From Hyperoplus lanceolatus (lineage: Eukaryota; Chordata; Actinopteri; Uranoscopiformes; Ammodytidae), in contig CM049400.1 in the NCBI GenBank assembly GCA_026929865.2, forward strand, positions 13,770,501-13,834,500: a DNA stretch of 64,000 bases, written 5' to 3'. Numbering within the stretch: position 1 is the stretch's first letter; each line of letters starts with the position of its first letter. Position numbers and translations under genes: made by a program. The notes below the pieces were generated by a model that did no database searches, was not told the origin of the DNA, and saw nothing but the letters and a program-made list of their open reading frames with translations. Positions 45-62,830 of this stretch are shown one piece after another.

Positions 45-3665
<3,621 letters not shown>

Positions 3666-4694
3666 CTATCTGGACATAAAGCTGAGAGACAGAGGCTCTT
3701 CAGATTTGCAGCTGTGGATAATATTTTGAAAAACTCCTCAAAGTCCTGCAGAGGGCCGACACCCTCTGCAGTCCGAAGACACCTAATAGTGTGGACGACG
3801 ATTTCAAAATTCTACCTTGATTTTAAAGTATGAATGGGAGTTCTTTACTTTTCTGTTTAAAATATTAACAATGTGATTTACTAATAGGAGAAGAAATGTG
3901 TGACTTATATTTAACTGACCACAGTAAGCCTATAAATTGAGAAGTCCTATTATCCTGACTTTAATCTAAAATGACCTATTCTAATTAAGCTTAGCATAAA
4001 CCTGAAATGACTGGTCCAACAACAGTCTATTAAAATGTGAACAAATGTACTTGAAAATCAACTTATTAATGGTTGCGTAAGAACCCCAGACAGTGAGCTG
4101 TACACCTGACTTAATTTGCAGAAAGGTAATTGTATGCACACATAAAATGTAATAATAAAAAATAAGAGTTTTGCTCTTTCTCAAAGCGTTTCCTTTTTGT
4201 CTCTGTCTCATAATTTAAATACAAATTAAATAGAAAGACATTATCAAACAGCAGAAAGACTTTAGGACAGTATTTCCTTTGTTTTGTGTCAAACCTGAAT
4301 GATTTGTGCTCACATGCAATATCTGTACAACCACAGGACCCTTAAAGGCAGATGTATCGCTATGGATCCCTATAAAACATAATTTTGTTTTCAATTAACA
4401 TTGTGCGACGCATAGCTGAATCAGCTGGAACTGCTGGTTGCAAGCATCTCACTCAACCACCACAGATCCTCGTAAGTGACTGTTTCCCCACTAGGGGGAG
4501 TCAGAGCACTGCTTGCTCTGAGTGACTTGCAATGGGCATAATTTCTTCTATGTAAAGGCCTCACTTTTCATCCTGTTGATTAAACAGTATATTTAGCCAC
4601 AGTGTGTTTTGATTGAACCTATGACTCTGAAAGACATGTTGAGTGTTTGTTTGGCACCAAGATAAAAGCTAAATCCATGATCCATTGGCAGATG

Positions 4695-4731
<37 letters not shown>

Positions 4732-5868
4732 CTCAGAAATGTGCAATTTTTAATTATTTTATTTACATTATTCAAAATAGGTTTGAAATAGTGTGTTTAG
4801 AATCACTTCCATGATTGTATATACTTTGGTGCAGAACATAAACTAAATTACATAATCAAGACGTCTTGCCTCAGTTATTATTCTCACCTTTTCTCTGGCC
4901 TCATTAACCAAAGCGACCACAAGACCACAAGGTTAAAGACTGCAGCTGATATTGTTGACTCTGTAGTATTTCTATTGCACTCTATAGCTCATGATAGATG
5001 ACCAAATAAGTTCCACTTTTATGATTTATATACTGTATAAATAAATCTTTATTTCTTCAGCTACTTGAAGTCATGGTTATATTGACCTTAAGATATAATT
5101 TTAGTTTTCTATCATTTTTATTTTCGTCACATCAGTTCCCAAAACACATGTGGTACTCAGTAGCCTTCCAGTTTCTAAATTAGCTGTGAGCATTAGTTTT
5201 GGCTTTCCTAAATACTGTAACTCTGTTCCAAGAAGATGGTCATATGACAATCTTTATCTGTTTTTCTCGATTGTTGCATCCTGTCCGTCTCTGATCATGG
5301 AGTCCTAAAATACCCTGTGTCCCTGGATTACTGTAATCCAGAGTCTGTGTGTCTGTGTGTGTGTGTATGTGAGTGTGGCCAAAAGATCTTTATTGAATTG
5401 TACACCGTCTTTCTAAAGGTGACTGACTATTTCTGCAGGAGAGCACTGACAGTCTACTTCCCACCCTGACTCACGTCTGAATCTGGACCACCTTCCCAAA
5501 GTGTTTCACATGTTCTCTGTGTTCTGAATTCATCTGAAATAATGTGACACTTGTCATGCTGTTGAAATGAGTGTAGAAATACCTTTAATGTAACAGACAC
5601 ACAACACAATGATACAGTACACAGCACAAAGGAGCATTGGGACAATTTAACAGCAATTACTGTAGTGTAGGAGATGAATGAGGAGGTCCATTGACTTCCA
5701 CACCCAATCTAATCTAATGACACTGCTCATTCTAGGGGATTGTGTGTGTGTGTGTGTGTGTGTGTCCTGAGGCAGAGCTGCTAATCCATTGGTTGATGAT
5801 GCATCTGAAAAAGACAGATGGCCCGTGCAGCCAATACACTGTTGGACCTGTGTGCTCAGTTTAAGGGC

Positions 5869-5926
<58 letters not shown>

Positions 5927-7184
5927 TGTCATTGCCTCCTCCCTGTTAGGGATTCTCCCTGAAGAGCTTTGATGCCTTTCCTGCATCGCTACACGGTCTA
6001 ATCACTTGTACCAGCTGTCAGCGTGTCGTCCTCCCTCCTTCCATCTCTGTGCGTGCGCCGGCACACCACTTAACCTCCTGTCCTCTGCAGTCGGCAATAA
6101 TGGACTCACAGCGTTATTACTTAAACATGTTGAACACATATCAACCATTGATTGCTCTGACTGCTCAGGCCCACACAGACACACAGCAAATACATTTGTT
6201 TCACACCGTTACACGTAAAACACACACAATATATTATATTATGTAATGCCTGACCCAGTTAAGCTTCTACACTTATAAGTTAAATGTTTAAACACAAGAT
6301 ACAACTTTAGAGGCTGCATTACATTTCTTTATTTTTTTACATTTAAGTTCCTGGACTCAAAATATACTCAGGTCCTTTCCTCTTTCTGAATGATTAAGTA
6401 TTGATAAAACTGTTTTGCCATGTATTATATCCAAACACAATGGTTTAATTTCTGTTTCATAGACTTTTTAACTCGTGCTGTAGGTGTGAAGAATGCTTCT
6501 GTCATATACAGCAGGAGTTTATCATGATGTGTTCTCCATAGTGGGCTTTTATGGTTTGATGCAGCACTAACATCATTTATGATGAAACTCTGCGGCGAGT
6601 GCCTCCTAAGCTCGGACATATCGTGACTGAACAGGATCAGGCTGCACCATAAGCCGAGCTATAGCTGCTTCTAGCACTCACACTGAGGACTCATTACAAC
6701 CAGCCGCTGGTTTCACAGCTAAACTCATGAACACAATTGATTTATTGATCGGGGAAGCTGATTGTCAACTCAGTGCTTAATGGCCTGTGTATGGATTCAT
6801 AGGTTATGGCTCAACGGTCAGAAGTCTCCTTTGGTTCATATACCTCCAGAGTTTGAAGATTACACTCAGGGTTATATTTTCAGATGTGTGCCAAGGATGA
6901 CTCCGAGTGGACATCATACATCTATGATGCATGAGAAAGCATGAGAAAGAGGAATTATAATCTCTGGGAGGTTCTCCTAATCAGAAAGCTCGTTCCCTGG
7001 TTCCTGCTCTCATAAATGGTAAACATGCACCCCTCACCCCATAAACCAACCCCCAACCTGCCACCCATCACCTTTTAGTAACACTCAGGCCTCTGTACTG
7101 GTAAATGAAATGACACCCTCCTTCCACCCCTCTAGCACATTGAAAAACTGCTCTTCCTGTGTTGAGTCCCGTGGCAGGTCAAAG
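3666..7184. other. ahcyl2 3' UTR and intergenic DNA
   Basis: No further coding exon is seen. The first part should be the ahcyl2 3' UTR; a canonical AATAAA at 5040-5045 is one candidate polyadenylation signal, but the transcript end cannot be fixed from sequence. The rest holds (GT)n tracts at about 4697-4729, 5741-5764 and 5873-5924, and otherwise A/T-rich single-copy-looking sequence leading to the microRNA cluster. Confidence 0.6.
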
Positions 7185-7272
7185 CTCTCGACCAGTTGTT
7201 GGCAAGTCTAGAACCACCGGATCCTTCCAGCCCACCAGAGTGAGTTCTACCATTGCCAAACACTGTGGGAGA
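7185..7272 (-). ncRNA. mir182: microRNA miR-182 precursor
   Basis: The 5p arm (7237-7260, reverse strand) reads TTTGGCAATGGTAGAACTCA, the miR-182-5p sequence with seed TTGGCAA. The 3p arm (7196-7216) reads TGGTTCTAGACTTGCCAAC, which is miR-182-3p. The two arms pair across a loop of about 20 nt. It is the third member of the cluster, about 280 nt downstream of mir96. The last bases of the 5p arm (TCT) differ from the mammalian form (ACT), outside the seed. The family is expressed in hair cells, photoreceptors and other sensory cells. Confidence 0.97.
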
Positions 7273-7551
7273 GTGTGCCTGGTCACAGCCATTGGGTCCG
7301 TGTGACGAGTAGGGTTCAAGTTACACACGGGACGGCGTCTCTGAGATGGAGCACAAGCCTCCATGGTAACCGGTGATATCTGAGAGGGACGGCGCAATCA
7401 ATCAGATCCATAGTTCATCCTCTGCACCCCCTAATCTCTCTCTCCCTCTCTCTCTCTTTCTCTCTCTCTCCCTCTCTCCTATCACTGTGTTGCTGTTGCA
7501 CAAAATATAATGGAAAAATCACAAGAGATGCCGGAGTACTCATGAACAGTC

Positions 7552-7636
7552 TTTCTTGTCCCATATTGGCACCACACATGATTGCTCAAGCGACGAGAAA
7601 CAAAGCAAAAATGTGCTAGTGCCAAAGTGGGCAAAG
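7552..7636 (-). ncRNA. mir96: microRNA miR-96 precursor
   Basis: The 5p arm (7604-7626, reverse strand) reads TTTGGCACTAGCACATTTTT, identical to vertebrate miR-96-5p including the seed TTGGCAC. The 3p arm (7563-7584) reads CAATCATGTGTGGTGCCAAT. Both arms pair in a normal hairpin. In mammals seed mutations in miR-96 cause progressive hearing loss, and the seed is intact here. It lies about 90 nt downstream of the mir183 hairpin, so one primary transcript is likely. Confidence 0.98.
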
Positions 7637-7724
7637 AATATGGTGATTTTCATTTGGCTGAAAGCAAACCTGTCTGCGGCTTTACCTAAAGCATAAAGTG
7701 ACACAAAGCACAGGCAGTGTGGTT

Positions 7725-7812
7725 CTGTCTCAACTCTGTTTATGGCCCTATGGTAATTCACTGATAGTGTGCTGTGACAGTGAATTCTACCAGTGCCATA
7801 CACAGAACAGGA
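7725..7812 (-). ncRNA. mir183: microRNA miR-183 precursor
   Basis: The 5p arm (7778-7800, reverse strand) reads TATGGCACTGGTAGAATTCA, which is miR-183-5p, and the 3p arm (7739-7761) reads GTGAATTACCATAGGGCCAT, which is miR-183-3p. Loop and pairing match the vertebrate precursor. It is the first hairpin of the mir183-mir96-mir182 cluster, transcribed on the same strand as ube2h, as in human. Confidence 0.98.
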
Positions 7813-8377
7813 GGAGATATAGGTGTAGTCCCGCATTAATGCTACCAAAGCAATAACAGTTACAAATGTGAGTCCTGACATCCTGTGAGCAGCTTCATTG
7901 CTCAGACTTTTACATCTGCCTGTATTACTGCTGCTGACCTCTTTAAAGTCTGGGGCGTCTTGTCTTCATAACCCCTGTGCTGAGTTGAAATGAGCAGACT
8001 GTATCAGAATGAGTTGGTGTCTTCCCTTCGTCTCTGATGTGTACACTACACAGGATGGGGAGTAAATCCAGCCACGCCATCTGCTGCTGGGAAACAAAGG
8101 CCTGTAGGGCTTAATAGACCAGTTTCTTTAAGAAAATCTTTAGCTGTGCATTTAGACAATTCTCAAAACAATCATAACATTATAGTTGTTTTTTTCAATC
8201 CTCCATGAGATCTCCTGCGGATGCTGGTGGAGGAGCAGGTCTGCTGTTCAGATTGATTCTGGCTGTAGGGAATGATGCGCTAAGTGATTTTTGAGATGCT
8301 CCAAATGGGTCCCAAAGCAGGGCTCATCTTCCCCTTTCCGGGAGAGATCAATAGAGTAAAAAGCTTGAGAGCGAGAG

Positions 8378-14336: not shown

Positions 14337-17300
14337 CTACAACTCCATGTCCTGGGCCTCGTCCTCCGAAAAGTCTGACATCGAGCTCTCGGAAGAGGAG
14401 TTGCCCCCTCCCTCCTCCTGCTCCTTCAGAGCCTCCTCTGTGGCATACCTTTGGATGTACTCTGAGAAAGACACACAGTAGGGAGAGAGTCACCTGTAAC
14501 TGTGCTCTCAATCCATCACACTCACAGTTTACAGCAATTGGGAGAATTTTAAATTTTATTTTACCATTCTACAAAAAATCTCAACTCAAACTCCACTTAC
14601 TCATGCTCAGGAGCATTCAAAGAAATTATTGTAATTTCAGGAATTTACTTGTGCTATATTTGGATGGTTTTTGAGCAACGGTCGAATGCTCCAGAACAAG
14701 CCGTTGATTGTGGGGATCATGATAGGGACAGTGCACATTAATTAATATCAGGATCAAAAATACGAGACGTAAACATGGCAGAGTTAGCAAAAATATTAAA
14801 TAATCTACATCCATGTCCCCATGCAAAAAAAAACATCTACTGTTTACAGGAGTAAAATTTATATTTGTTGTAATATTACCCGTTTCCATTAATTTACATA
14901 TGCATATTTTGGTGCGGTACCTTTAATCTTGTGTTTATAATCTTCGGGCCGGTGTAGGTACATGGCGGCTGCGTCCCCGTTCAGAGGGTCGATAGGGTTT
15001 GGGTAGGCGAGCAGCTGGGGGAGGAACGACTCAAAGATGTTGGTGAGGTCTGGTGGATGATGGGAAAGAAAATGAGTCAAGACAGTGAATAACCAAGCTC
15101 AAGCTATAGGAACACTGAGTCGTTCCATCATTCGTGTAGCTGCACCATGATCCACCAGAGGTCTCTCTTGTAAAGAAATGCTCAATCAAACAGCTATATG
15201 CTGTTGCTTTGCATTCAGGTCAAGCTTGACCAACCTTTAGCATGAGACCAGCCTGATCTCGCGGAAGCTTCACATTCGTTTCTCTCTTGCAGATCAAAGT
15301 GGATTTTCTCCAATCTCCGTGGGGAGGAGCCTGGTCCAAAAATTATGGGTCAAATCAGGACCCACGTTACGACCTAACGTTTGCCCCTTACGGCCTCTGC
15401 ACACATCCTGCGTCTACCTCTGGAGCGCGTCGCCTTACCTTACTGCTGCGTCTCTCGGACTTTTCTCGGACACACATGGAACGTCTCAGCATCTGCTGCT
15501 GCTAAAAGCCCTATCTTTCTACATAGAGTTTTCATAGATAATTCCCATTAAAAAGTTCTTTCGTGTCATTTATGATGCATATGATTTATATTGAGTCTAA
15601 TATTGAGTCTGGACAGTAATCCGTGCGTCCCATTGCCTTCTTTTTTCTTTTCTTTTTTTTGCCACATTTTCGCTTGTTGGAAGTTTTATATTGAAAGGGA
15701 CACAACAGGAAATGGTGAAACTACAGCAAAAGCTGCTGGTGTGAAGTCAATATGACTCTCAGCAGAGTATTTCTCTATCAGTTAAAGCAGAGAGACCCGA
15801 GAGAGACGCGCGGCTCTCAGAAAAAAATAGGCGAGCCTCCTGAGGTAAAGGGGAGCGTCGCTGCAGACGTGCCTCCGACGCGCATCAGCAGTGCGTCTGA
15901 GGTTGGATGTGTGCCCGCTCTAGGTTGATTACACGGTCAGTGACAAAAAGTCAGACGCAGACGCGAGGTAGACGCGCAGTAGAGGTAGGATGTGTGTGGA
16001 GGCCGTTACAGTGAAAGGCAGCTTCTGTTTGACTCTTGTATTCGTCAATCTAGCCTCTTGAGACCATCCATACCTCACAATATGAACCTATACGGACCAG
16101 GCTCCTCCCCGCGGAGATTGGAGAAAATCCAGACTAAGTTAAACGTTACAATTTGGGAAATTGGGCGTTCCAATGATTGTAGAAGCATTTAGGGATTAAT
16201 TGGTGTATCCGAACATGCCATCAGCCTAAAACGACACGTTTCCAAGGATAAACATCTATTGTATACATATGTTGAAACTTACTATATTCAAGACTATAAT
16301 TTTATGGTTTTAGTATCACCTTAACAAAATAATAAAGCCACTTCAGTCAAGATTCAAGTACTGACTCACTGTTCCATGTGTTCAAATGTTTGGTCTGTTA
16401 GTCATCATACTGTAGCTAAAGAGTACCAGGTGCTCGTCACAAGATGTTAGCACATATGTAGAACATAATAGCCCAAAGACTTGAATGTAAACCTACATTT
16501 GGGCATCATTGATAATTTTGTGGAGTTTGACATTCAAAACAGGCAGAAATAATGACTGAAGTTTAAGCCGATATAACTACGCTTGAAGCCGCACTGTATA
16601 AATTTAAGCTGCTCACTTTGGGTGTTTTTTATTCTATTTTAATTTTATTACTGTCATCTGGTATAACGGAGTGACTATCCCAATCAAAGCTGTGGCTGCT
16701 GTGACTCACCGTAGAGAGCAGACCATGTCTGGTTTATGACATCTAGACACACGGTTCCTGACCTAAAAAAGACATAACACTGTTAGTACAATATAAGCAG
16801 ACGCTGTCAAAGCAAGTGACAGCTTTTCCTGGATGGCTTGGCATGAATCTTTTCTCACATGCTAGAATTAAGAAAATGCTTGAGGCAACAAATCTACAAA
16901 AATGTAATTACTTGGATGCAACTCTCCAGCGGAAATCAATTCCCTCTTTGCCATGTTGACTTGTTAAATAAGAATATGAACCAAAATCTGAAATATGGCA
17001 GGTCTACTTACGCTTCATCAATGTTGGGATGAAAGATTTTATTCATGAATCCTGTTTAAAAAAAAAGAGGCAGGTATTATTTGTTGCAGAGTACGAGTTA
17101 AATGTGGAGTCAGCGATTCAGGAGAATGCTTGTTGTCTACAGAAAAATTCAAAATCATTGAATATCTCCTCACGATCCGCTACCTGTCCGTCGGGTGTTT
17201 ATACAATGGCTTGAAAAAGTATTCATACCCCTTGAACCAGTGGAGGATCTGGAAAATTTTAGATGGGGTGGCGAAAGGGGGGCAAGAGGTCTTGGCAGGG

Positions 17301-24994: not shown

Positions 24995-26865
24995 TAAATC
25001 ATCATCATCATCTTATCATATTCAACCGCTTATCAAGGTCTCAAGGTCACCTTACAAAGCATAAAATCATCATAAAATCATTAAAAACATAAAAAAAAAA
25101 CAATACATTGTGGAAAAACAAAACAAGCAAACAATCAAGACAGTGACCAGTTATAGGTTGTTTGCGAGTTTGAACAGGTGAGTTTTGAGTTGTGACTTGA
25201 AGGTTGTAATGGTGTCTGACTGTTTTATGTGTGGGGGGAGGGAGTTTCAGAGCCTGGGTGCTGAACAGCTTAATGACCGGGCACCCATTGTAATGAGGCG
25301 TGATGTGGGGATACATAGTAGTCCAGCAGAGGTTGAGCGGAGGGAGCGAGAGGGAGTGTATTCTTGGTGGATGTCACAGAGGTAATTGGGGGTTAGGTTG
25401 TGGAGAGCTTTGTAGGTGAGGAGTAGGGTTTTGTATTGGATGCGATATTGTACTGGGAGCTAGTGAAGTTCGATGAGGACAGGGGTGATGTGGTCAGATG
25501 ATTTGGTGTGGGTGATGATCCGGGCGGCTGAGTTCTGAATGATCTGCAGTCTGTTTATGAGTTTGGTGGGGAGTCCGGTGAGGAGGGCGTTGCAGTAGTC
25601 TATACGTGATGTGACAAATCACATCATCACAGGAGATGCTTATGACACACACCATTGTCTTTTATATGAAAAGGTTGGGTGGTACTCCCTTAAAGAGAGA
25701 CGTGATGCACATTGGCATATTTTTATTTACAAAGCCTTGACCGGGAAGCTTCCTCGTTATTTAACAGAAATGTTGCAAATTTCAGATGGGCTTTATCAGA
25801 CCCGCTCCACTGACATGCTCATGCTTTATATCCCACAAGCCCGGTCTGAGCTGGGAAAGACAGCTTTTAGCTTCAGTACCCCCGACTCCTGGAACAACTT
25901 ACAGCAACAAATTAAACTAAATACCTTCATATCCTTTAATCAATTTAAACAAACTATCTTAAATCTGCCAAACTCTACCTGTAACTGTTTTAATTAGGCT
26001 ATATTGTACTTTCACCCATTTCATTTTAATTGCTGCCACTCTTCACCACTATGTAAATGTTTCAATTGTTTTTTTCTCTCTTCACCTGTTGTTGTGTATT
26101 TGATGTATTTGCATTGAATATTGTGTATGTATTGTTGTTTTTCCTTGGAATTTATTTACTCGACATCATTGTAAATGAGGGTCACCCCTCAATTGGTCTC
26201 TCGAGGATAAATAAAAGTTAAATGAAAAATGAGTGAACCAGGATTTCAGTGCTGGATTGGGTCAGTGATGGGCGGAGTCTGGCGATGTTGCGGAGGTGGA
26301 AGAATGCAGTCCGGTGATGTTTTGAATATGAGGTGCGAATGAGAGGGTGTTGTCCAGGATGACGCCGAGGCTCTTGACTTTGGAGGAGAAGGGTACTGGG
26401 AATCCATCGATGATTATGAGTGGAGCTGGGGTGTGTTGTGATTTGGTGAGGGTGGATTTGGAGCCGATGAGCAGGGCCTCGGTCTTGTTTGCGTTGAGTT
26501 TTAGGAAGTTCCTGCTCATCCAGCTCCGGATGTCTTCCAGGCACGTGATGAGGGAGGTGGGGGGGATGGCAGCGGTGGGTTTGGTGGAGATGTAGACCTG
26601 TGCGTCGTCAGCGTAGCAGTGAAAATGGACCCCATGGTGACGGAGGAGTGTGCCCAGCGGGAGGAGGTAAGTGGTGAACAGGAGTGGACCCAAGACCGAC
26701 CCCTGGGGGACACCCAGTGAGACACCCGAACACCCAGACTTGTGTTCGCTTAGCTGAGCAAATTGTTGACGGCCGGTGAGGTAGGATGTGAACCAGGAGA
26801 GTGCAGCACCAGTGATCCCAATGCCAGCCAGGCAGTCCAGGAGCAGAGGGTGGGAGATGGTGTTG
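24995..26865 (-). mobile_element. L2-like LINE, 5'-truncated, reverse transcriptase part
   Basis: Reverse-strand reading frames encode LLLDCLAGIGITGAALSWF, the RT core GVPQGSVLGPLLF, the catalytic CYADDAQVYIS and a C-terminal part with [14 protein letters not shown] and APRLWNSLPPHIK. Stops and shifts break the frame. The copy starts abruptly at 26865 where another element adjoins it, and is split at 25619-26226 by a fragment of a different LINE. The motif set fits the L2 clade. Confidence 0.85.
25619..26226 (+). mobile_element. 3' end of a second LINE inserted in the L2 copy
   Basis: A forward-strand frame (to 25997) encodes a C-terminal ORF2 fragment (ERRDAHWHIFIYKALTGKLP, TPDSWNNLQQQIK). 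It is followed by a 3' UTR ending GGATAAATAAAAGTTAAATG. The flanks TGACAAAT and TGAAAAAT look like an 8-bp target duplication with one mismatch, and the L2 frame resumes on the other side. It is probably a CR1- or Rex-type element; the clade is inference. Confidence 0.75.
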
Positions 26866-28182
26866 AGTCTTGCTGGAGTTGTGGCGCGCGCCTGTAATCT
26901 CAGTCGTTTGGTGTAAGGTGCATGGTCTTCCGACCCGCCAGTCTTCCTCCCGTCTTGACGTCTTAGAAAAAAGTTAATTCAATATTACGAGCGGGGGACA
27001 TCCTGTAGTTATTTGACAAATTTTATTTGCTGATCTCTTCCCCAAATAACTCTCACTCCTAACCCTGTATTTGACAGTAAAGCGTTAAGGTTGCGTGTGT
27101 CAGCCTGGTTCTCCAGCCGAGGCTGCTATGTAAAGGCTCATTTATGCTCCAATTCCGTGCGTAAATAGAGACGTACGTTTACAACGTTATATCCGTCACT
27201 GCCCTCAAACTTCCATGCGTCCTTTATGTTGGAATCGACATTACGCAAATCTACCATAAATGGGCAGCAGCGCCGCTCAGAGTAAAAAGTTACTCAAATA
27301 GGAAGAAGAAGAGTCAAACAGTGAATTAACTGGAATAAATATTTTATAATAGGTCCATGGAAGAAACAGCTTTAGCGATATACTACCGTAGCGATGGAAG
27401 AGGCTAAACTGGAGGCTGCATTATAGACAGCGGGGGTCTGTGAGGACATCAATCACAAAATGTGAAACAAACTAGTGTCGCACGGACCTCCGACACTTCT
27501 GTATTGCAGCCGTCAGCCTGCCGTCTAGCTGACATTCTTCCCTGTGCGATCCGCGGTCATGCTGCTCTGTTGTAGTTGTATGTCCCTGTGCCCCTGCCGT
27601 GTAACTTCATAGATAGATAAATGTGTATGTCATTTCGTACCAACTCACAAAAACCTCTCCTCAAAAGTTAAGACATTTTCTAAAGTATTATGTCTTTCGT
27701 TTGTGTTTGTAAACAAATGTACAATAAGTGAAAGTGAACTGTTGGCTATGTGCTCCCCGTGATCTTCGGTAGTAATGCTCCGTCCTGTCCGTTTGGTACG
27801 CATCCGCAAGCTTGCAGGATACGTGCAGAAATACGGACGTAATGTACGCAGAGTACGGACAGAAGGCTCCGTCCGTATCCGTATGCGTATGTAATGTAGA
27901 GCATAAATGAGCCTTAAAAGTGTCCGAAATAAGTGCCTCACAGGCAGACACAGGTCGAGACTAATGCCGCTCCTCCTGCGTCGTGTTTGGTGCTGAACAG
28001 AGTGTGACAGTGTTCACGTAATTTCGCTTGAGCCAACCCCTTAAGACTAATGATAATATCAAACCAGTTTGATAATGTCGGAACGTCAAGACGGGAGGAA
28101 GACTGGCGGAAATCGAGTCGGAAGACCACCTTACACCAAACGACTGAGATTACGGGCGCGCGCCACAACTCCAGCAAGACTC
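26865..28182. mobile_element. foldback element with about 95-bp inverted ends containing a 7SL-like motif
   Basis: The left arm (26865-26961) and right arm (28085-28182) are inverted copies. Each begins GAGTCTTGCTGGAGTTGTGG and continues GCGCGCGCC(T/C)GTAATCTCAG, then diverges to CCGTCTTGACG. The left arm abuts the broken end of the L2 copy. A Harbinger-type element sits in the middle. No coding capacity is seen. Confidence 0.7.
27134..27914. mobile_element. PIF/Harbinger-type non-autonomous element with TAA target duplication
   Basis: Termini AGGCTCATTTATGCTC and its exact inverse GAGCATAAATGAGCCT, with TAA on each side (27131-27133 and 27915-27917). The inner sequence is rich in CGTACG/CCGTATGCG words typical of this teleost family. 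It is 781 bp with no transposase. Confidence 0.88.
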
Positions 28183-34242: not shown

Positions 34243-38026
<3,784 letters not shown>

Positions 38027-39748: not shown

Positions 39749-41990
39749 CCGGCCACTTTGTTCAATGGCTTATAGAAACCAAAAGCTATTCAGCCAATCA
39801 CATGGCAGCAATGTAATGCATTTAGGCATTTAGACGTGGTCAAGACACTGTACTGAGGTCAAACCGACCATCAGAATGGGGAAGAAAGGGGGTTTAGGTG
39901 ACTTTGAACATGGCATGGTTGATGGTGCACGGCAGGATGGATCCATACTTTCATGTTGTTTACGCCAAATTCTGAACCTGCCATCTGAATGTCGCAACTG
40001 AAATCGAGACTCATCAGACCAGGCATGATTTTACAATCTTCTATGGTCCAATATTGGTGATCCTGTGAGAATTGTAGCCTCATTTTCCTGTTTTTAGCTG
40101 ACAGGAGTGGCACCCGATGGGGTATTCTGTTGCTGTAGTCCATCTGCTTCAAGGTTGGTCGTGTTATGCGTTCAGAGATAGATACCATAGATATGGTTTA
40201 CAGTGAAAATCCCAGTAGATCAGCAGTATCTGAAATACTCATAACAGCCCTCCTGGCACCCTCAACATTGCCAAGTTCAAAGTCACTTATAACCCCTTTC
40301 TTCCCCATTCTGTTGCTCGGTTTTAACTTCAATAAGTTGTCCCATCCAGGTCTACAGGTGAAACTCGAAAAATTTGAATATTGTGCAAAAGTTAATTTAT
40401 TTAATTAATTCTACTTAAAAGGTGAAAATAATATATCATATAGACTCATTAAATGCAAAGTGAGATATTTCAAGCCTTTATTTGTTATAATTTTCATTAT
40501 CATGGCTTACAGCTTATGAAAATTAGAATATTACATGAAATCAATAAAAAAGGGATTTTAAATACAGAAATGTCAGAGCTCTAGAAAGTATAATCATGAA
40601 TATGTACTCAGTACTTGGTTTGGGCCCCTTTTGGATGAATTCTTGCCTCAATGCGGCGTGGCATGGATGCTATCAGCCTGTGGCACTGCTGAGGTGTTAT
40701 GAAAGCCCAGGTTGCTTTGATGGTGGCCTTCAGATCTGTATTGTTGGGTCTGGTGTGTATCATCTTCCTTTTGACAATAGCCCATAGTTTCTCTATGGGG
40801 TTCAGGTCAGGAGAGTTGTAAGACCAATCAAATACATTAATACCATGGTCAGTCAACCAGTTACTAGTGGTTTCTGGTACTGTGGGCAGGTGTCAAGTCT
40901 TGCTGGAAAAGGAAATTGTCATCTCCATAAAGCTTGTCAGCAGACAGAAGCATGAAATGCTCTTAAATCTTCTGGTAGACTGGGTTGACTTTGGACTTGA
41001 TAACACAGTGGACCAACACCAGCAGATGACATGGCACCCCAAATCATCACTGATCCAAATGAATGTTGCGTTTCATTTGGAAATCAAGGTCCCACAGTCT
41101 AGAGGTAGAGTGGAGGAGAACAAAATTCAAGGTGATTGAAGACCACTGTCAAGTTTCAACAGCCATGATTTGGGGCACCATGTCATCTGCTGGTGTTGGC
41201 CCACTGTGTTTTATCAAGTCCAAAGTCACCACAGTCGTCTACCAGGAGATTTTAGAGCACTTAATGCTTCTCTCAACTGACAAGCTTTATGGAGATGCTG
41301 ATTAACTTTTTCCAGCAAGACAGAACACCTGCCCACAGTGCCAGAAACCACTAGTAACTGGTTGACTGACCATGGTATTACTGTGCTGGATGGCCATACA
41401 ATTCTCCTGACCTGAACTCCATAGAGAAACTATGGACTATAGTCAGGAGGAAGATGAGACACACCAGACCCAACAATAGATGAGCTGAAGGCCACTATCA
41501 AAGCAACCTGTGCTTCCACAACACCTCAGCAGTGCCACAGGCTGATAGAATCCATGCCACGCCGCATTGATGCAAGAATTTATGCAAAAGGGGCCCAAAC
41601 CAAGTACTGAGTACATATGCATGATTATACTTTCTAGAGGGCTGACATTTCTGATTTTAAAATCAATTTTTTATTGATTTATGTAATATTCTAATTTTCT
41701 GAGATTTTGAATTTGGGGTTTTCATAAGCTGTAAGCCATGATAATCAAAATGATAACAAATAAAGGCTTGAAATATCTCACTCTGCATGTAATGAGTCTA
41801 TATAATATATTATTTTCACATTTTTATGTTGAATTACTGAAATAAATTAACTTTTGCACGATATTCTAATTTTTCGGGTTTCACCTGTATATGCCTAAAG
41901 GAATTGAGTGGCCGCCAATGTGATTGGCTGATAAGTTATATTTGTTAACAAGAAAATGAACCGCTGTACCTACAGTATATACCACCGGTG
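39749..41990 (-). mobile_element. Tc1-like element in foldback form (outer), interrupted by a second Tc1
   Basis: Left end CCGGCCACTTTGTTC followed by a forward-oriented terminal part with AGCCAATCACATGGCAGCAA. From about 39928 the sequence switches to the opposite orientation and carries transposase remnants (ORF 39871-40188 reverse: GVNNMKVWIHPA, HRVPLLSAKNRKMRLQF). Beyond the inserted element the reverse-oriented terminal part continues (CCAATGTGATTGGCTGAT) and ends ACCACCGGTG. The copy is thus a head-to-head derivative with most of one half deleted. Confidence 0.78.
40353..41889. mobile_element. Tc1-like element that is a near-complete palindrome (inner)
   Basis: TA plus CAGGTGAAACTCGAAAAATT at the left and the inverse TTTTTCGGGTTTCACCTGTA at the right, with TA target duplication (40353-40354 and 41888-41889). 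The left arm (40353-41047) and right arm (41165-41889) are inverted copies over about 700 bp with scattered differences and small indels. Each arm carries the same 3' transposase half (reverse ORF 40608-40856: YNSPDLNPIEKLW; forward counterpart near 41390-41610). The 5' transposase half is missing from both. Confidence 0.88.
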
Positions 41991-52483: not shown

Positions 52484-55400
52484 GTGCAAAGGCAAGGCAA
52501 GGCAAGGCAAGTTTATTTATATAGCACAATTCAGACACAAGGCCACTCAAAGTGCTTTACAGGGGCAAGATTAGAATACATAAAACACATTATAAAACAT
52601 TTAAAAGCGAATAAAAGAAGCAAATTAAAAAAAATTAAAACTCGATTTAAAAACATTTAAAAGCAAATAAAAGAAGCAAATAAAATGAAAATTGCAGGTT
52701 AAAATGGAAACAAAAAAGTCTTCAGACTCGATTTAAAAGAACTGAGAGTTGCAGCAGACCTCAAATTCTCTGGGAGTTTGTTCCAGAGATTTGGTGCATA
52801 ATAACTAAAAGCTGCTTCTCCTTGTTTAGTCCTAACTCTAAGGACTGTAAGTAGACCTGTCCCAGACGACCTAAGGGCTCTGGACGGTTCATAACGTATC
52901 AGCATATCAGTAATCTATTTTGGCCCTAAACCATTTAGTGCTTTATAAACCAACATCAGTATTTTGAAATCAATTCTTTGAGTGACTGGGAGCCAGTGTA
53001 AAGACCTCAGAACTGGGGTAATGTGATCTACTTTTTTGGTCCTAGTGAGGACTCGGGCAGCAGCGTTCTGAATTAGCTGAAGCTGTCTGATAGATTTTTT
53101 TGGAAGGCCAGCAAGGACACTGTTACAGTAGTCAAGTCTACTAAAGATAAATGCATGGACAAGTTTGTCTAAATCTTGCTGAGACAAAAGCCCTTTAATT
53201 CTTGATATGTTTTTTAGGTGGTAGTAGGCTGATTTATTAATTGATTGTATGTGTTTCTTGAAATTCAAGTCGGAGTCTATAACAACACCAAGATTTCTGG
53301 CTTGGGGTGTGGTTTCTAACATAATGGATGTAAGTTGTGCGCTGACTTTTAATTGTTCATCTTTGGCACCAAAGACAATTACTTCAGTTTTATCGTTGTT
53401 TAATTGAAGGAAATTTTGGCACATCCAATCATTGATTTGTTCAATGCACTTACTCAGTGCCTGTATCGGACTGTAGTCTTCTGGTGATATGGTTATGTAA
53501 ATTTGTGTGTCGTCTGCATAATTATGGTAGCATAATTTGTTCTTATTCACAATCTGAGCTAGTGGGAGCATGTAGATGTTAAATAGAAGAGGGCCAAGAA
53601 TGGAACTTTGGGGGACCCCGCATTCAATATTTGTCCGCTCAGATGTGAAATTGCCTATTGACACATAGTAGGGGAGAACGGGGTAAGTAGGCACACTTTT
53701 TACTCTAGTGAGAATTGCTCATCACCTAAACATCTTTGAATAGTCATTCCTACATTAAATTGAAGCTTAAGGTGTTGGCTTGAAATGTGTACCCCTCACT
53801 TGTTCTATCTTATTGTAATAAAGAAGAAATTAATCATCAAAGACACCCTTACACATTGTGACAACCAACCCCATCAAGGGGTCGGTTGTCAAACACTATG
53901 GGGTTGTTTGTCACAATGTTATCTTAATGGGAATAATCTTAAAAAGAAGGCAAGAAAGTAGAACTAAATTTGAAAGTTTAATTGCATTGTCAAGTTGACA
54001 AATAGGCCTACATAACTTACTGTAGCCTTGGCAGCTGGTCTAGCTTGGGATGCACTGGGTTGTTTTGATTTTGTTGTCCTTTTTTCTTTTGCATGCTAGA
54101 TGCCTTTTACAGCTCTATTCTTTCCTTCTCTGGGGTGTCAGTGAGGATACAGCTTGACAATTTATTTTGTTATTGGGTTCCTTTTCTGGCTGCAGCCTTG
54201 AGATAACATGTGACAACCAACCCCCCAAAAAATGTGACGACCAACCCCAACTTGAATTTCTTGCTAGCGTCAAGGCCAACAACCATCTGACAACTAATTA
54301 GCTTGCTAACCGCAATCTAAACTATAGTTTACCCTTCACACTTTGTATGGGTAACAAGTGTTTTGTTATAAACCCATTGTGTAAAAGCCTAGAAGAAAAA
54401 TACTGAGGAGCTAAATATTTTCAATTTGACATGAAAAACACAAACAGTGGTCTCACCTCAAATTCAGCAGTCTAACTCCAAGGACGACTATGTAGGTGAC
54501 CTCTGATCCCAATTCTGGATATTTACATACCAAAATTTCACAGACAGCGCCTTCTGGTTCCGAGATATAACGATTGTGACAACCAACCCGTGTGACAAAT
54601 TACCCCGTTCTCCCCTAGTCTCTATCCTTTAAGTAGGATTCAAACCAGCTTAGTACAGTTCCAGAAAGTCCAACCCAGTTTGCTAGTCGATCTAGTAATA
54701 TGCTGTGGTCAACTGTGTCAAAAGCGGCACTGAGATCCAGTAAAACTAAGACAGAACTTTTGCCACTGTCTGTGTTTAAGTGGATGTCATTGAGGACCTT
54801 AACCAGAGCAGTCTCAGTGCTGTGGTGTTGTCGAAATCCTGACTGGAAGACATCAAAGCAGTTATTCATTGCTAAGTAGTTATTTAGCTGTTGATAAACA
54901 GCTTTTTCAATGATTTTACTTAAAAATGGTAGGTTAGATATGGGCCTATAATTTTTCATGAGTGATGTATCTAGATTGTTCTTTTTTAGGAGTGGCTTGA
55001 TGACTGCTGTTTTCAGGGCCTGTGGGAATACACCTGTCTGAAGGGACATGTTGACAATTTGTAGAACATCTGAGGCCATACAGCTAAAAACTGTTTTAAA
55101 GAAGCCTGTGGGCAGAATGTCAAGGCAACAGGATGAGGAGTTCAGGTGTTGTATAATGTCCTCCAGGTTTTTGTGGTTTATAAGATAAAATTCTGTCATT
55201 GCATTTGAATTGATTTTAAGAGGGAACACATATGTTGAACTTGGTATTGATGCAGTGACAGCTTGTCTAATTTAGTGAATTTTCTCAGTAAAGAAGGAGG
55301 CAAATTCATTGCAGGCCCTCGTGGAAAGATGCTCAGACGCTACTGGCACAGGAGGGTTTGTTAATCTGTAGCAAACAGGGCACGTGCATTGTTGTTGTTT

Positions 55401-56640
55401 TTGGTGATGATGTCAGAAAAGAAAGAATGCCTTGCATTTCTCAGTTCTGAGTTAAACGTGCACAGTTTCTCTTTGAAGATGTCATAATGAACCTGGAGAT
55501 TTGTTTTTCGCCACCTGCGTTCTGCTTTACGGCACTCTCTTCTTTCTATTCTGACCTGCGGGGCATTTCTCCAAGGAGATCTTTTCTTACCAGAGACAAC
55601 CTTCATCTTAGTGGGCGCAATAGCATCTATAACACTTGTAAGTTTGCCGTTAAAGTTGTCTAAGAGCTCCTTAACTGAGTTACAGGGGAGGGGTGGTATC
55701 GAAGAAAATGCTTGAATGAATGTTTCACTGGTATTTTCTGTAATATACCGCTTTTTGATTACTTTTGATTGATCAATTGTGTGCACAGACATTTTACTCT
55801 CAAAAAATAAACAGGAATGGTCTGTGAGGGGACCCATATCTGCCACTGTTATGTCTGAAATGTTCATTCCTCTGGAAATGATAAGGTCCATTGGTGCCCT
55901 TTGTTATGAGTTGGTTTGTCAACATGCTGATTTAGTCCAAAGTTGTCAAGGACACAGCACAGTTCTTTCGCACATCTGTCCTCTGGTTTGTCAGTATGAA
56001 TATTGAAATCTCCGACGATTAATACACAGTCAAACTCAGTACATATTACAGACAGCAGTTCAGTAAGTTCATCAAAAAAGCTTGCATTGTATTGTGGTGG
56101 CCGGTAGATATTGATGAAAATAGCTCTAGAGGCTGAATTTAACTGTAGAGCCACATACTCAAATGAATAAAAATTTCCATAAGACATCTTTTTGCATTGT
56201 AGAGATTCTTTAAACAGAATAGCAACCCCCCCTCCTTTTTTATGCACTCTGGATTCACTCACAAAATTGTAATTTGCGGGGGCGGACTCTATGAGAACAG
56301 CTGAGCTGTTATCTTGGTCTAACCAAGTTTCAGTTAAAACATAAAATTAAGATTGTGCCTAGTAATAAGATCATTAATTAAAAATGTTTTACCTGCCAAG
56401 GATCTGATGTTTAATAAAGCTAAATTTAGTATGTTCGAAGCATTGTCAGCCCGATTTATTTCAGCACACTGTGGCTGAAGAGGAATGCTTATCAGATTTG
56501 ATACATTTACAGGATTTAAGAGTTTCCTGTTACTTGAGATACACTTTGAGAAACAGGGCCCCAGCTTATCCTGTGAGTCGTAGGCGTTAACTATGTAGCT
56601 GCGGCCCGGCACATATCAACAAGTGCTGACATCATCAGTC
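52484..56640 (-). mobile_element. L2-like LINE, near full length, degenerate
   Basis: Reading 5' to 3' on the reverse strand: endonuclease motifs LALLNIRSL, NIYRPPQYN, VGDFNIHTD and DHSCLFF (56612 to about 55800). Then RT motifs NYRPISNLPFLSKIIEK, FQSGFRQHHSTETALVKV, LLDLSAAFDTVDHS, GVPQSSILGPLLF and the catalytic NYADDTQIYI. Last is a C-terminal SRLDYCNSVLAGLP and a 3' tail of TTGCC repeats next to 52484. Frames are broken by stops, and by a TA-target element at 53671-54615. The exact 5' end is uncertain. Confidence 0.9.
53669..54617. mobile_element. TA-target DNA transposon with GGGGAGAACGGGG termini (copy 2)
   Basis: Starts GGGGAGAACGGGGTAA (53671) and ends with its exact inverse TTACCCCGTTCTCCCC (54615), flanked by TA at 53669-53670 and 54616-54617. 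Removing the 945-bp insert and one TA rejoins the L2 frame as KDRD-YYVSIG. No transposase is present. Confidence 0.92.
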
Positions 56641-57629
56641 TCCCTAGCCTGATGATGATGACGTCGCGGTGGGATCGGAGGGCGTGGAGGGGTGACGAGC
56701 CGGGCACTGTGGCTTAGATTGGCGAGTTGAGGGGGACGTTGACTGCTGGGGGTACATATGAACACACCAAACCGACTGCTGACTTTCCGTACGCTCTGCG
56801 CTTGCGCGGGACGTAATGTCTCTATAACAGCAGGCGGCGCTAATCTGTATTGTGGCCCGAAAAAATACGGAAGCCGGAAATGATGGGACGGCTCTCTAGA
56901 CCATAAACATAGATAGAAATACGTATTTATATTTATGGACCATAAAGAGCACCATGTTTAGCAGAGAGTGTCGAGCATGGTGTCGAGCAGTCAACAAGGG
57001 TTGATGCATGTGAGTACTCGCTGAACGAAACAAACAAACACATTAAAACGATGGCTAACTGTTGCTAGCTGTTTGTGCTACCCGCCTCACTTCCGGGCTT
57101 CACTGATTCGCTAGCCCTCCACAAATCAAATTGCTCCAACTGAAAGACTGCCCGCCGCCGATAATCGGCTCAAAAGAAGCCCGACGACATCTACGACGAC
57201 CGATTTCACGGCACACACAAAACAGATTTGTATACCCGCCCCCTCCCGACTCTACGACGGTGATTATCGGGCCGGTGTGTCCTGGCCTTTAGGGACAAAG
57301 GGCATTTCTATCTCTCTATCCATCCGTGTTTGAACTGAATACAGTCTGTTAAAGCTCACATATTATGCACTTTGCTGTCAATTTTATATGGTCTAAATAG
57401 TCCCTAATACTTATTTTTTTAGATGTTTGCTGAAAAACCCGTTCAGATCATTTATTGTAGCAAGCCTCTATACCCTGATTGTCCTCTGGTTTCAGGATGA
57501 CCTATATTTGTGCGATCTGGCTGGCCCCTCCCACCTCTCTGCCGGGCTTTCTTTATGTCCATGGGGCTCTCCCACCGTCTCTGCTGTGCTCTCGCGATAC
57601 TAGAGAGACACTGCGTGACTGCGAACACA

Positions 57630-60600
57630 TATGAAGGTATATATGTAGCATAAGTCTTTAGCACGTGTAACTGCAGATTTTGAATGCGTAAACTGAAGTC
57701 ACAAATGTGTAACAGTAGATTTGAAGTCGTAAATATTTGTTTTGCATGTGTACTCCAAAGTCACAAATGTGTAACAGTAAATTTGAAGTCGTAAATATTT
57801 TTTCTACCATTGTGGACACAAAATAGGGGCTACGAGTTCACAAATCGTTGTTACGGGTGCACAAATCCTATCCTGTGCATCGCAACTTCAAAGAGTCATG
57901 CGCTTGACACTTTTGCTACAAACATTGCAGCACAGTTGGTGCAAAACACATTTGCACACCCGTGTTTCATAATGTGAGAACATGCCCCCAATTTGTGCAT
58001 TCGTAAACCCAAATGTGAACTAACGCATCAGAAGTTGCACATCTGTGAAAAATGTCCTCTCAAATACAATGATATCGAGCACAGCATTTTAATGAGCGAG
58101 CACAAATCGATGATACAACTGCTCAAATCTGTTCCTACAAGTCTCAGCTGAGGGTTTTCTCTGCTCGAATCTGCTCCTGCAAGTCTCGGCTGTGGGTTTT
58201 TTTGCAGGTAGATTTGCACCACGCCCAGGTGGTAAATTTGGTGCAAAAGTGTTTCGTATGCGTAGAACAGATTTGTATCCGTAGAAGGTGGGCGGGACAA
58301 CATTGTCGCATCATCCAATGAAAGCGCCGGTTGGGACAAACGGAGGAAAAGCCATTTTCCTTCGTCCCTTTTCACCAGAAATTGTAGGAAATGTAATAAT
58401 AAGGGAATTGAATAAGAGGGAACTACAGCGGAGCCTTATGCCAGTAGTGAAAGTCATAAACAAGTTTACTTTAGCAGATATAAGGGCCAGCGTAACGTCT
58501 GCTGTGTGATTGGCACTGGTGTAACTGTTTAAACCTGCTGTTTTTCTCTTTAAAACCTTTACATTTTAATAAAAGTAGTCTTATTAAATAGAGAATGAAT
58601 TTCCATTATATATTTTTTTAACCTTTATTTATACAGGTATATCCCATTGAGTCCGAAGACTCTTTTGCAAGGGAGACCTGTTCCCATTTACACGTTACCA
58701 TTCACACACATTCATACACCGATAGCAGGCTAACTATCGACGATAGTTTATTGTCCCGCAGCCGCTGTTAAGGCTCCTGGCTGTTAAAACTATCTATGGT
58801 TAAAACACACCACACGCAGGGGGTGAAGAGGACGTTGCAGGCATTGAGGACCAAAGTAAATAAAGTAGGCCTACATATCTTGCTGCAGAGTATTCAGCAT
58901 GTATCTAAATCCAGAAATATGCTTATAAATCATACACTTAGTCTTCTAAATGTAGTAAGCTTAATTAATTTAAACGTGTGAATAGTGAAGTGAATAAGTA
59001 ACCTACTCTACAAGGCAATAGAAAAGTATAGAGGACACATTAAAACTGAATTGGAATAATTGTTTCTCTATCTCACATTTTCCATGTGAAATTATCACTA
59101 CTTGTATCACAAACTGATAATTAGATGATCAGGTTTAACTGTGTGCTTATCCCCAGACAGTTCTGCTATACACCTTACCTCATGTGACGTGTCCAGAAGA
59201 ACAGGGTACAAAGCTTCATATAACCTCATTTCAGTGATTACTTTAATTAATCACAATCACAAAGTGTCACACCATAACATTTTATGCAGTTTAGAACATG
59301 TTAATTCAGATCACGTGCTGCATTAATAAGTAGGTCTGCATGCTGCTAAAGCAAGACTAATAAATGCCCTATATCAATTATATTTATGATTTGCAGTTAT
59401 CACATCAAAGCACAATCAGTACAAATGTATTGTAAAAGCTTACCCCACAAACAAATCACAAGATTTGGACTTTTAAATATTTGTGGATTTACTAAACATA
59501 TACATACGGTCAAAATGAAAAATACAAATCTACCAGTTTAAAACTAGAATGCACTCACAATTGCATACCTCCAAGTAAAGTTCTGTATGGCGTTATTTTA
59601 TTAAGAGAAAATGAACAAAATACCCAAAATGCTCTGGCATGTGCCGGAACAAGACTTTATAAAACAAAACATAAAACTAGTAACTTAGTCCTTGGTCTGT
59701 AGCCCAACTGTTTACCATATTTAATCAAAATCTCCCCTACCTTTTTAATATGTCAAACAAATAAACATGACTGAGTATGTCACCTCATTTACTGCAATCA
59801 ATATGATTATGAATTGAGTATGATCTGACTTTGTCTAGATTTATAATAATCACAATCTAAAAATTGAAAACAAATTGTGTGTAGAGTGTAGAGTCAGACT
59901 GATGTGCTGTGACTGCCAGGTGAGTTCCACGCTGCTCCATCTTCGGAGATCTTCTCAAGGCAGCAGGAGCAGTGAAGTCTTCAGTTATCTGGAGTGTCCT
60001 TCCCTCAGCAATGCATACACTGGGGACGGAAACAATTGTTAGATCCCATTAGTGATGTTATAGTAAACACATGACGGATAATAGTTAGGACTGACTGTAG
60101 CTGCTCACTGTACAATGGCTTTTCCCTGACAGGGTGGAAATCCCAGACACTTGTGCAGGCCTTGTGCAGGACAGCCAAGATGAGTCTGTGGAAAAGCAGA
60201 TTGTGCCATTCAGATGTTAAGATAATGTTAAGATTTATAAAATAAATAAAATACATGTAGGTTCGAGTTGATGAAGAACACAAAGCTAAAAACTAATCAA
60301 TATAGTTTATTATAACAGCCCTGCAATTCATTCTCTTCGTGGGGGGTATCTTGTCATTAGTGACTTTTAAAATTAGTTGTAAATGTTTTTTTTCGGGCTG
60401 GAAAAACAGATATAAAATATGATTTAAACACGATGGAGCTGCACAATCAAAAAAAAAATCCTTTGCATAATGGGACGCTTGTCTACCTGTTTTTATTCAG
60501 AAACAGCAACATGATGTTGAGACGGGCTGAGCAGAATAGTATACTGCTCACATGTGTTTATTTGGATCTTCATAGCCACTATTAAGACAGAAAACGCTCT

Positions 60601-62243
60601 ATATGAGGTCGACACATGCTAACATTACATCCTGATGTAAAACTAGTAGGCTATGTATGAAGGTGCCGATGTCCCAGAAAAGCAGACATACAGACACGCT
60701 GATTATTATTATAGCAACAAGACTCCAGTATTCAGCTGACTCATATTTCCCTGGCTAGCGCCGGGATTATTTTCACTGATTAACGGAAGGATTCATTGGT
60801 GAGCCTTCTTATTTTACGTTAACAGTTAATTATTAACATCCTTAGAAGTGACCAAATGCCCTAAAAAACGGTACATCCTTTAAAAGAATATGCTAACGAA
60901 CATTAGCTGTTATACCCATTATGACTTGTTAGCTAGTGGTTAGCTATGCTGCCTGCAATACATTATAACCACACGTTGCTTCTCATCATTGAACGTATTA
61001 TACCGACCAACTTTGAAGTTTAAAAACATAAGAAAACCAGACTTACAGTTCATAGTTTCCGTGGGATGGCTCCGTGTCCTGTAGGCTCTAGCTAAACCCT
61101 AGGTCTGTGTCCGACCGTGTGTCCGTGACCGTCTGTCCAGACACTGCTGTGGCTCCGGACAGAGATTGTGAAGCAGCTCAACTGTTTATTAAACCACCGC
61201 AGGTCCTGGTGTTTAATGGGTATCCCCTCCTCAACTTCACCGTGTCACATAATAAGCCTCCTGTCCTGTCTAAAATGATCGGGAAACCACCTCAAAGCTA
61301 GCTAACGCGGCTTATTTACTGTTACAGACACCTTGGACTACTTTTCCTCAAAGGCTGGAGTACATATAATATAATTCTCCATTACTTAAAAAATGCAATG
61401 TAAAACTACAGAAAAAGAGTTCAATTCACTACTACCTACTACTTTGCATTAGTTTGATAGTTGTTGTTGCTCATTTAGTCATTTCCTACAATTTCTGGTG
61501 AAAAGGGACGAAGGAAAAAGGCTTTTCCTCCGTTTGTCCCAACCGGCGCTTTCATTGGATGATGCGACAATGTTGTCCCGCCCACCTTCTACGGATACAA
61601 ATCTGTTCTACTCATACGAAACACTTTTGCACCACATTTACCACCTGGGCGTGGTGCAAATCTACCTGCGAAAAAACCCACAGCCGAGACTTGCAGGAGC
61701 AGATTCGAGCAGAGAAAACCCTCAGCTGAGACTTGTAGGAACAGATTTGAGCAGTTGTATCATCGATTTGTGCTCGCTCATTAAAATGCTGTGCTCGATA
61801 TCATTGTATTTGAGAGGACATTTTTCACAGATGTGCAACTTCTGATGCTTTAGTTCACATTTGGGTTTACGAATGCACAAATTGGGGGCATGTTCTCACA
61901 TTATGAAACACGGGTGTGCAAATGTGTTTTGTACCAACTGTGCTGCAATGTTTGTAGCAAAAGTGTCAAGCGCATGACTCTTTGAAGTTGCGATGCACAG
62001 GATAGGATTTGTGCACCCGTAACAACGATTTGTGAACTCGTAGCCCCTATTTTGTGTCCACAATGGTAGAAAAAATATTTACGACTTCAAATTTACTGTT
62101 ACACATTTGTGACTTTGGAGTACACATGCAAAACAAATATTTACGACTTCAAATCTACTGTTACACATTTGTGACTTCAGTTTACGCATTCAAAATCTGC
62201 AGTTACACGTGCTAAAGACTTATGCTACATATATACCTTCATA
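57630..62243. mobile_element. unclassified 4.6-kb element with 764-bp inverted termini
   Basis: 57630-58393 and 61480-62243 are inverted copies with only a few differences. The outermost bases are TATGAAGG / CCTTCATA. AACACA lies at both borders (57624-57629 and 62244-62249), and the flanking repeat reads through when the insert is removed. The arms contain a 62-bp tandem unit (two copies from 57698) and a 42-bp unit (two copies from 58119). The 3.1-kb interior has no recognisable transposase. Confidence 0.8.
58615..58750. repeat. dispersed repeat fragment inside the long-TIR element
   Basis: Contains AACCTTTATTTATACAGG, AGGGAGACCTG and CATTCACACACATTCATACA, a combination I recognise as a common teleost interspersed repeat. 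Borders are not defined. Confidence 0.45.
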
Positions 62244-62299
62244 AACACAGTGTTTACCCGGAACTAAGCCATACTTTTAACAATTTGACATGACCTGAC

Positions 62300-62830
62300 A
62301 TGATTAAAACCAGTGAAAAGAGTAGCTTCAAAGTTTGATTTCTACATGAATATCTTCCCATCCTTTGTCATGTTAATGCAAGGGGAAAGCTAAGTTAGTG
62401 TATTAGGAGCAAAACTTGGTGCTACAACCGAAGCTACATGGGCGCTAACGCTAAAAATAAGACTCAGACGATTTTAAAAACCAGTGAAAACGGTAGCTTC
62501 AAAGTGTGATTTCTACAGGAATATCTTCCCATCCTTTGTCATGTTAAAAACAAGTCATTTTCAGACTGCTGTGGGGAATATAAACAGTGTGTTAAAAGCA
62601 AAAGCTGGTTGCTTGTCCCAAAGCTAATAGCTATACACCAGTCAGGCAAAACTACCAATAAAAACTATTATTTTAGTTTCACCGTTTAAAAAAAAGCACA
62701 GGTAGCTTCCTAACCGTTGTGTTATTAAAAATGAGGCATTAATAGACTGCTGTGGTTAAGATAAATTAGTGGAGTATGAGCAAAAGCATTCTGTGTTGAT
62801 GTATGTAACATTCAGGCTGTACTAAGGGCA
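62300..62830. repeat. diverged tandem repeat of about 180 bp, two to three copies
   Basis: The block AAAACCAGTGAAAAGAGTAG followed by CTTCAAAGTTTGATTTCTAC and TATCTTCCCATCCTTTGTCA begins near 62305 and returns near 62478. A weaker third unit begins near 62690 (AGCACAGGTAGCTTCCTAAC, AGACTGCTGTGG). It belongs to the repeat into which the long-TIR element inserted. Confidence 0.75.

Follow-up and report, generated by a model that had tools for sequence, protein, structure and literature searches.

What is the 4614-bp unit with two long, facing arms at positions 57630-62243 of the window (the whole 64,000-nt stretch of Hyperoplus lanceolatus DNA analysed here), did it arise by insertion, and which group of mobile elements does it belong to? 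An earlier note, made from the letters of the window, had described it as an unclassified mobile element with 764-nt inverted termini and a 6-bp duplication. Judged from comparisons within the window and across the genome, the unit looks like one copy of a transposon family that carries no gene. The family appears to have been active recently, since the arms of different copies differ by only about 5 of 764 letters and one copy lies inside another.

The window copy is bounded by long inverted arms and a 6-bp duplication

The unit is made of two inverted 764-nt arms around a 3086-nt interior (58394-61479). The left terminal inverted repeat (57630-58393, plus strand) starts with TATGAAGG and the right one (61480-62243, minus strand) has CCTTCATA at its end, giving TA..TA termini. 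The two arms align without gaps with 6 mismatches (99.2% identity), none of them in the outermost 311 nt, and the match grew no longer when gapped local alignment took in 100 nt of flank outside and some 300 nt of the interior. The sequence AACACA abuts both outer ends as an exact target site duplication (TSD; 57624-57629 and 62244-62249, plus strand); when abutting lengths of 4 to 9 were compared, only 6 matched. Together with the family copies described below, this bears out the mobile element of the earlier note. Its further proposal, that the host repeat closes up when the insert is removed, gained no support: a search of the window with the joined flanks gave no empty site, and both repeat units concerned (62306-62376 and 62477-62547) are entirely to the right of the insert.

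Each arm contains two 62-nt units arranged head-to-tail and 87% alike (in the left arm at 57678-57801, plus strand, with the mirror image at 62070-62193) and two 42-nt units, also head-to-tail (58119-58200, plus strand, mirrored at 61673-61754). The 62-nt units are possible candidates for binding sites. The heptamer CACAAAT is present six times in one arm (expectation 0.43), and at least 1 of 300 shuffles also has a 7-mer reaching six. A GC box (58290) and two CCAAT motifs (57988 and 58315) are common motifs and were given no weight, nor was the folding of the arm as DNA (z -2.44; none of 20 shuffles reached so low a value). The outer 60 nt of the arm and its inverted inner 60 nt are unlike (468 of 500 shuffles were equally good), as are the inner surroundings of the two arms (107 of 500), and the arm is therefore not an element of its own. 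The idea that each arm is a separately inserted element was rejected, as the inner ends have neither a TSD nor an inverted outer end.

No second copy of the arm or of the interior was found within the 64-kb window, and neither Rfam nor ARAGORN detected an RNA gene in the window copy or next to it. The right flank (62306-62787) consists of imperfect repeat units, of 71 nt at 94% and 63 nt at 75%. About 1.3 kb to the left of the element, LINE remnants with reverse transcriptase and endonuclease pieces lie on the minus strand (52915-56346).

Two-armed copies are dispersed in the genome

The 806.7-Mb assembly was searched with the arm as a query, and the best 40 of 276 candidates, which were those scored, were 98-100% identical to it. 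The exact 20-nt terminus was found 40 times forward and 38 times in reverse in the whole genome, against 0 for a reversed-pattern control. Pairing of forward and reverse termini within 20 kb gave 31 two-ended copies of 876 bp to 13,438 bp, among which 11 measure 4565-4654 bp and 9 measure 5001-5281 bp; with exact termini counted and loci taken from the best matches, old or diverged copies are under-represented in these numbers. The shortest copy (876 bp, C13:9488582-9489457) has both exact termini and is possibly a miniature form.

We read 25 loci, namely the window and 24 others fetched from among the 40 best arm matches. Both arms were present in all 25, and so was the same interior, whose main pieces are 95.5-100% alike; TA..TA ends were also seen in the fetched copies with intact ends. 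Both outer ends could be placed in 24 of the 25 loci, and 18 of these 24 copies have an exact 6-bp TSD. All 18 TSDs are different, with no strict target preference seen in their letters. In the remaining six, two copies have a damaged end (L024 and L040), one matches in 5 of 6 letters (L033), one has a 5-bp match (L035) and two show neither (L036 and L038).

The search for two-armed copies that the earlier note had proposed was thus productive, and neither of the outcomes that it had named as fatal was found: the arms are not all single, given the 31 two-ended copies, and the structure is not a duplication peculiar to one place, as it recurs at many places of the assembly. A segmental inverted duplication or an assembly artefact would have to account for the many two-ended copies scattered over the assembly and the diversity of their TSDs, as well as for the empty site described next, and we consider it to have a negligible chance of being correct. 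The dispersed, nearly identical arms suit the study of how transposon ends stay alike.

An empty site shows the duplication, and other copies carry nested DNA

One copy, L034, has inserted into a sister copy of the family. The 40 nt on its left and the 40 nt on its right are both found in the uninterrupted interior without mismatch (40 of 40 each), where they overlap by exactly six letters, GATACC, which is also the TSD of L034; a 6-bp duplication on insertion is thereby seen directly. GATACC occurs once in the uninterrupted site and twice in the filled one. The uninterrupted 36-nt context is held by 24 of 24 other loci, and in the window the site lies at 61219-61224, where it reads GGTATC (GATACC on the opposite strand) and is single, against doubled in the sister copy at the insertion point of L034. 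The empty-site comparison suggested earlier could therefore be made within the family itself and, with the different TSDs, it upholds the view that the unit is an insertion and not a segmental inversion.

In 10 of the 25 loci the interior is broken at one common point, interior position 2147-2150. The extra DNA of the five of these that were compared is one sequence of 416-575 bp, with TGT..ACA ends and located next to TATA. As the ten interrupted loci are at ten different places, comparison of the copies shows that the unit spread as a sub-family after gaining the nested insert. Larger extra pieces in L021, L023, L024, L035 and L036 do not match one another, most have inverted ends, and they were read as nested insertions. 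The initial expectation that longer copies would be autonomous was given up, the extra DNA in the loci examined having the appearance of nested insertions. Ten of the 13 listed open frames in the extra DNA of L021 and L022 were scanned and gave no Pfam match at E ≤0.01, and in L044 no frame reaches 110 codons. The nested insertion of L021 (positions 3405-8168 of that locus) is 4764 bp long with ends GGCCGGTTTCACAG, has CTAAG on both sides and contains an internal 442-nt direct repeat at 99.8%.

Arm variants point to copying from arm to arm

Arm variants were compared in 17 loci in which both arms matched over positions 1-764. At columns 12 and 438, sub-family variants in the outer half, left and right arms agree in 17 of 17 loci. 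At column 746, near the inner end, 8 of 17 right arms carry a variant that none of the 17 left arms has; a variant at column 395 is likewise confined to the right arm, in 4 of 17 loci. On a 6-letter insertion at columns 632-637 the arms agree in 13 of 17 loci. The mean difference between arms is 4.1 letters within a copy and 4.8-5.2 between copies, and most differences are private. Because the outer sub-family variants agree in both arms and others are one-sided, we infer that the outer part has been copied from arm to arm, which explains the pattern better than parallel mutation, the effect being small. In the window copy, the lack of any difference in the outer 311 nt has a chance probability of 0.043.

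The 6 arm differences of the window copy convert to 0.4-1.1 million years, with assumed rates and on the premise that the arms were identical at insertion; given arm-to-arm copying, this age would be too young. Recent insertion and gene conversion, offered earlier as alternatives, both gain support from the 17-locus comparison.

The interior behaves as non-coding DNA

The interior had been called non-coding in the earlier note, and our searches agree. All six read-through frames gave zero Pfam matches at E up to 1; the same six-frame treatment detected transposase pieces, with an E of 2e-4 that stays below the curated cut-off, in a decayed element that the window also contains. A search of solved structures gave zero matches for five of the six frames and one at E 0.84, taken as chance, for the remaining frame. 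Comparison with Rfam gave zero matches, as did microbial collections, which are little informative for an animal element.

That the interior is host DNA captured once before the family spread, perhaps as minus-strand 5' exons (an ATG followed by GTAAGT at 61049), is improbable in our view. The observed/expected CpG ratio does differ along the interior in a way that suits capture: counted in 200-nt bins, it is 0.16-0.47 from 58800 to 60199 (seven bins) and 0.49-0.84 from 60200 to 61399 (six bins), the leftmost two bins of the interior being at 0.48 and 0.91. However, donor-like GTRAGT sites (3 versus 3.25 in shuffles) and the longest stop-free run (95 codons versus 94.8) are at the level of shuffled sequence, and a hand-assembled 39-residue peptide had no match among solved structures. 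When five frames of the element were scanned singly, one CENP-N match appeared at E 0.048; it is below the cut-off and was absent from the six-frame scan. Gene capture has, in these tests, no support above chance.

Integrase-core genes as a possible source of the enzyme

We take the integrase-core domain rva_4 (PF24764) to be the typical IS3EU-like domain; among the matches listed, no paper contained rva_4 and IS3EU together. The genome has 84 rva_4 matches, all 116 candidates having been scored, and none was found in 14 control genomes. Once the 28 matches within 4 kb of a kept one had been set aside, 56 places were left. None of the 31 two-ended copies contains an rva_4 match, and the nearest one is 22 kb from an end. 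The longer copy with a transposase between the same termini, which the earlier note had suggested looking for, was not encountered in this form, and the rva_4 search gave no coding partner with these termini. The longest two-ended copy (13.4 kb, C17:8524500-8537937) is also without an rva_4 match; it provides a concrete locus for seeking the enzyme. Another long two-ended copy, of 8.7 kb, is at C1:21738712-21747439.

One rva_4 family has five copies that are 95-100% identical over at least 5.9 kb. In one of these, L055, a minus-strand gene at 3121-4658 combines an N-terminal helix-turn-helix-like piece, just under the cut-off, with the rva_4 core. In the other four copies, similarity to L055 breaks off at L055 position 5927, and they continue past its other end; owing to this shared stopping point, the five copies are probably a young transposon family in its own right. 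Its visible end near 5927 is not TATGAAGG. In the 6.5 kb read, no DNA shared with the element was found at E 1e-3, and ten rva_4 loci of 3.4-3.5 kb shared none with it either. A plausible type of enzyme is present in this genome, and it might serve the element.

The family would most likely move as follows. A DDD/E transposase supplied in trans by another element would bind the arms, with their repeated 62-nt and 42-nt units, and excise the unit. The ends would then be joined to the two target strands at points offset by 6 bp, and repair of this stagger would make the duplication. The matched sub-family variants suggest that the arms would sometimes be copied from one another.

Other features of the window

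A 1.54-kb palindromic Tc1/mariner-like element lies at 40353-41889. Its arms are identical at 629 of 693 aligned nt, its ends are CAGGTGAAA with TA adjoining both sides, and each arm holds an outward-facing DDE_3-like piece below the curated cut-off; it looks like a half-element duplicated head to head. At 15300-16131, about 0.8 kb is enclosed by inverted arms (38 nt at 97% and 28 nt at 86%), possibly a small transposon. Two other inverted pairs, one of 56 nt (98%) and one of 27 nt (100%), have their arms 1.1-1.2 kb apart at 26865-28182; the left arms fall inside a frame that resembles reverse transcriptase by eye. The precursors of miR-182, miR-96 and miR-183, a cluster in keeping with a vertebrate source, are on the minus strand at 7191-7807, and a Kelch-like frame (E 1.6e-6, below the curated cut-off) is at 36315-36896.

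Comparison with known transposon groups

Polinton/Maverick elements share a 6-bp TSD and long termini with the unit. They measure 15-20 kb and carry genes for a protein-primed DNA polymerase and a capsid (PMC4046053). The earlier note had set them aside, and we also rejected them on size, 4.6 kb here, and on the absence of polymerase and capsid domains from an interior free of Pfam matches. Very long inverted arms are known from Foldback elements and long-TIR MULEs, and MULEs have TSDs of 8-9; the family differs in its interior, shared by all loci read, and in its TSD of 6.

A non-autonomous family of the same type may instead be served by a transposase of hAT6, of Dada or of a group yet to be named, a reading to which we give a real though minor share of belief. 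In favour of it are the 6-bp TSDs that hAT6 and Dada produce, the lack of any rva_4 match between the ends of the 31 two-ended copies, and the different end of the single rva_4 family with a visible end. The 6-bp TSD of hAT6 (PMC12730594) is shared by the window copy and 18 of 24 copies, TSD length being the one hAT6 feature compared. Against this reading, TA..TA termini with a 6-bp TSD are a stated feature of IS3EU/GingerRoot (PMC10045372). Dada, with a 6- or 7-bp TSD and known to occur in fish, is possible, as is hAT6, and was put low: many of its families, not all, insert into multicopy small RNA genes, whereas Rfam and ARAGORN find none at the window site and the 18 TSDs all differ. It is rather unlikely that the family represents a transposon lineage of its own, whose very long arms stay alike by mutual copying and whose transposase has yet to be connected with termini of this sort; the 13.4-kb copy could be the autonomous form of such a lineage.

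We return to the reading that we favour with some confidence, that of a young, non-autonomous cut-and-paste DNA transposon family which would probably belong to the IS3EU/GingerRoot superfamily. IS3EU elements always have TA..TA termini and usually a 6-bp TSD; GingerRoot elements, which have been joined with IS3EU, have a 6-bp TSD and mostly TA..TA termini (PMC10045372). Because both features are described for this group, the label unclassified was too strong, and the part of it that stands is that no coding partner with these termini has been found. IS3EU has been annotated in killifish (PMC12763893) and in one of four teleost genomes, as a flattened table gives it (PMC4746887). In fungi, degenerate copies of the IS3EU-related Styx move, probably by means of the transposase of intact copies (PMC10853768). 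Under the Repbase rule, a non-autonomous family is assigned by equal TSD length and by the first 11 nt being alike with at most one mismatch (PMC4455052). Fungal IS3EU families end in TAYGG..CCRTA (PMC12730594), and over these five letters, the only ones compared, the element has one mismatch, A versus G at position 5.

No arm length for animal IS3EU families was found in the available text of PMC10045372 and PMC12730594, and among the matches listed for IS3EU in fish, or for its inverted repeats and non-autonomous forms, no title concerned such long arms, which is not to say that they are absent from print. The family is unlike IS3EU/GingerRoot in the A of its fifth letter where fungal families have G, in its 764-nt arms and in that so far none of its 31 two-ended copies has an rva_4 match between the termini. 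It is like them in its TA..TA termini, its terminal inverted repeats, its 6-bp TSD and an initial TATG that fits the first four letters of TAYGG.
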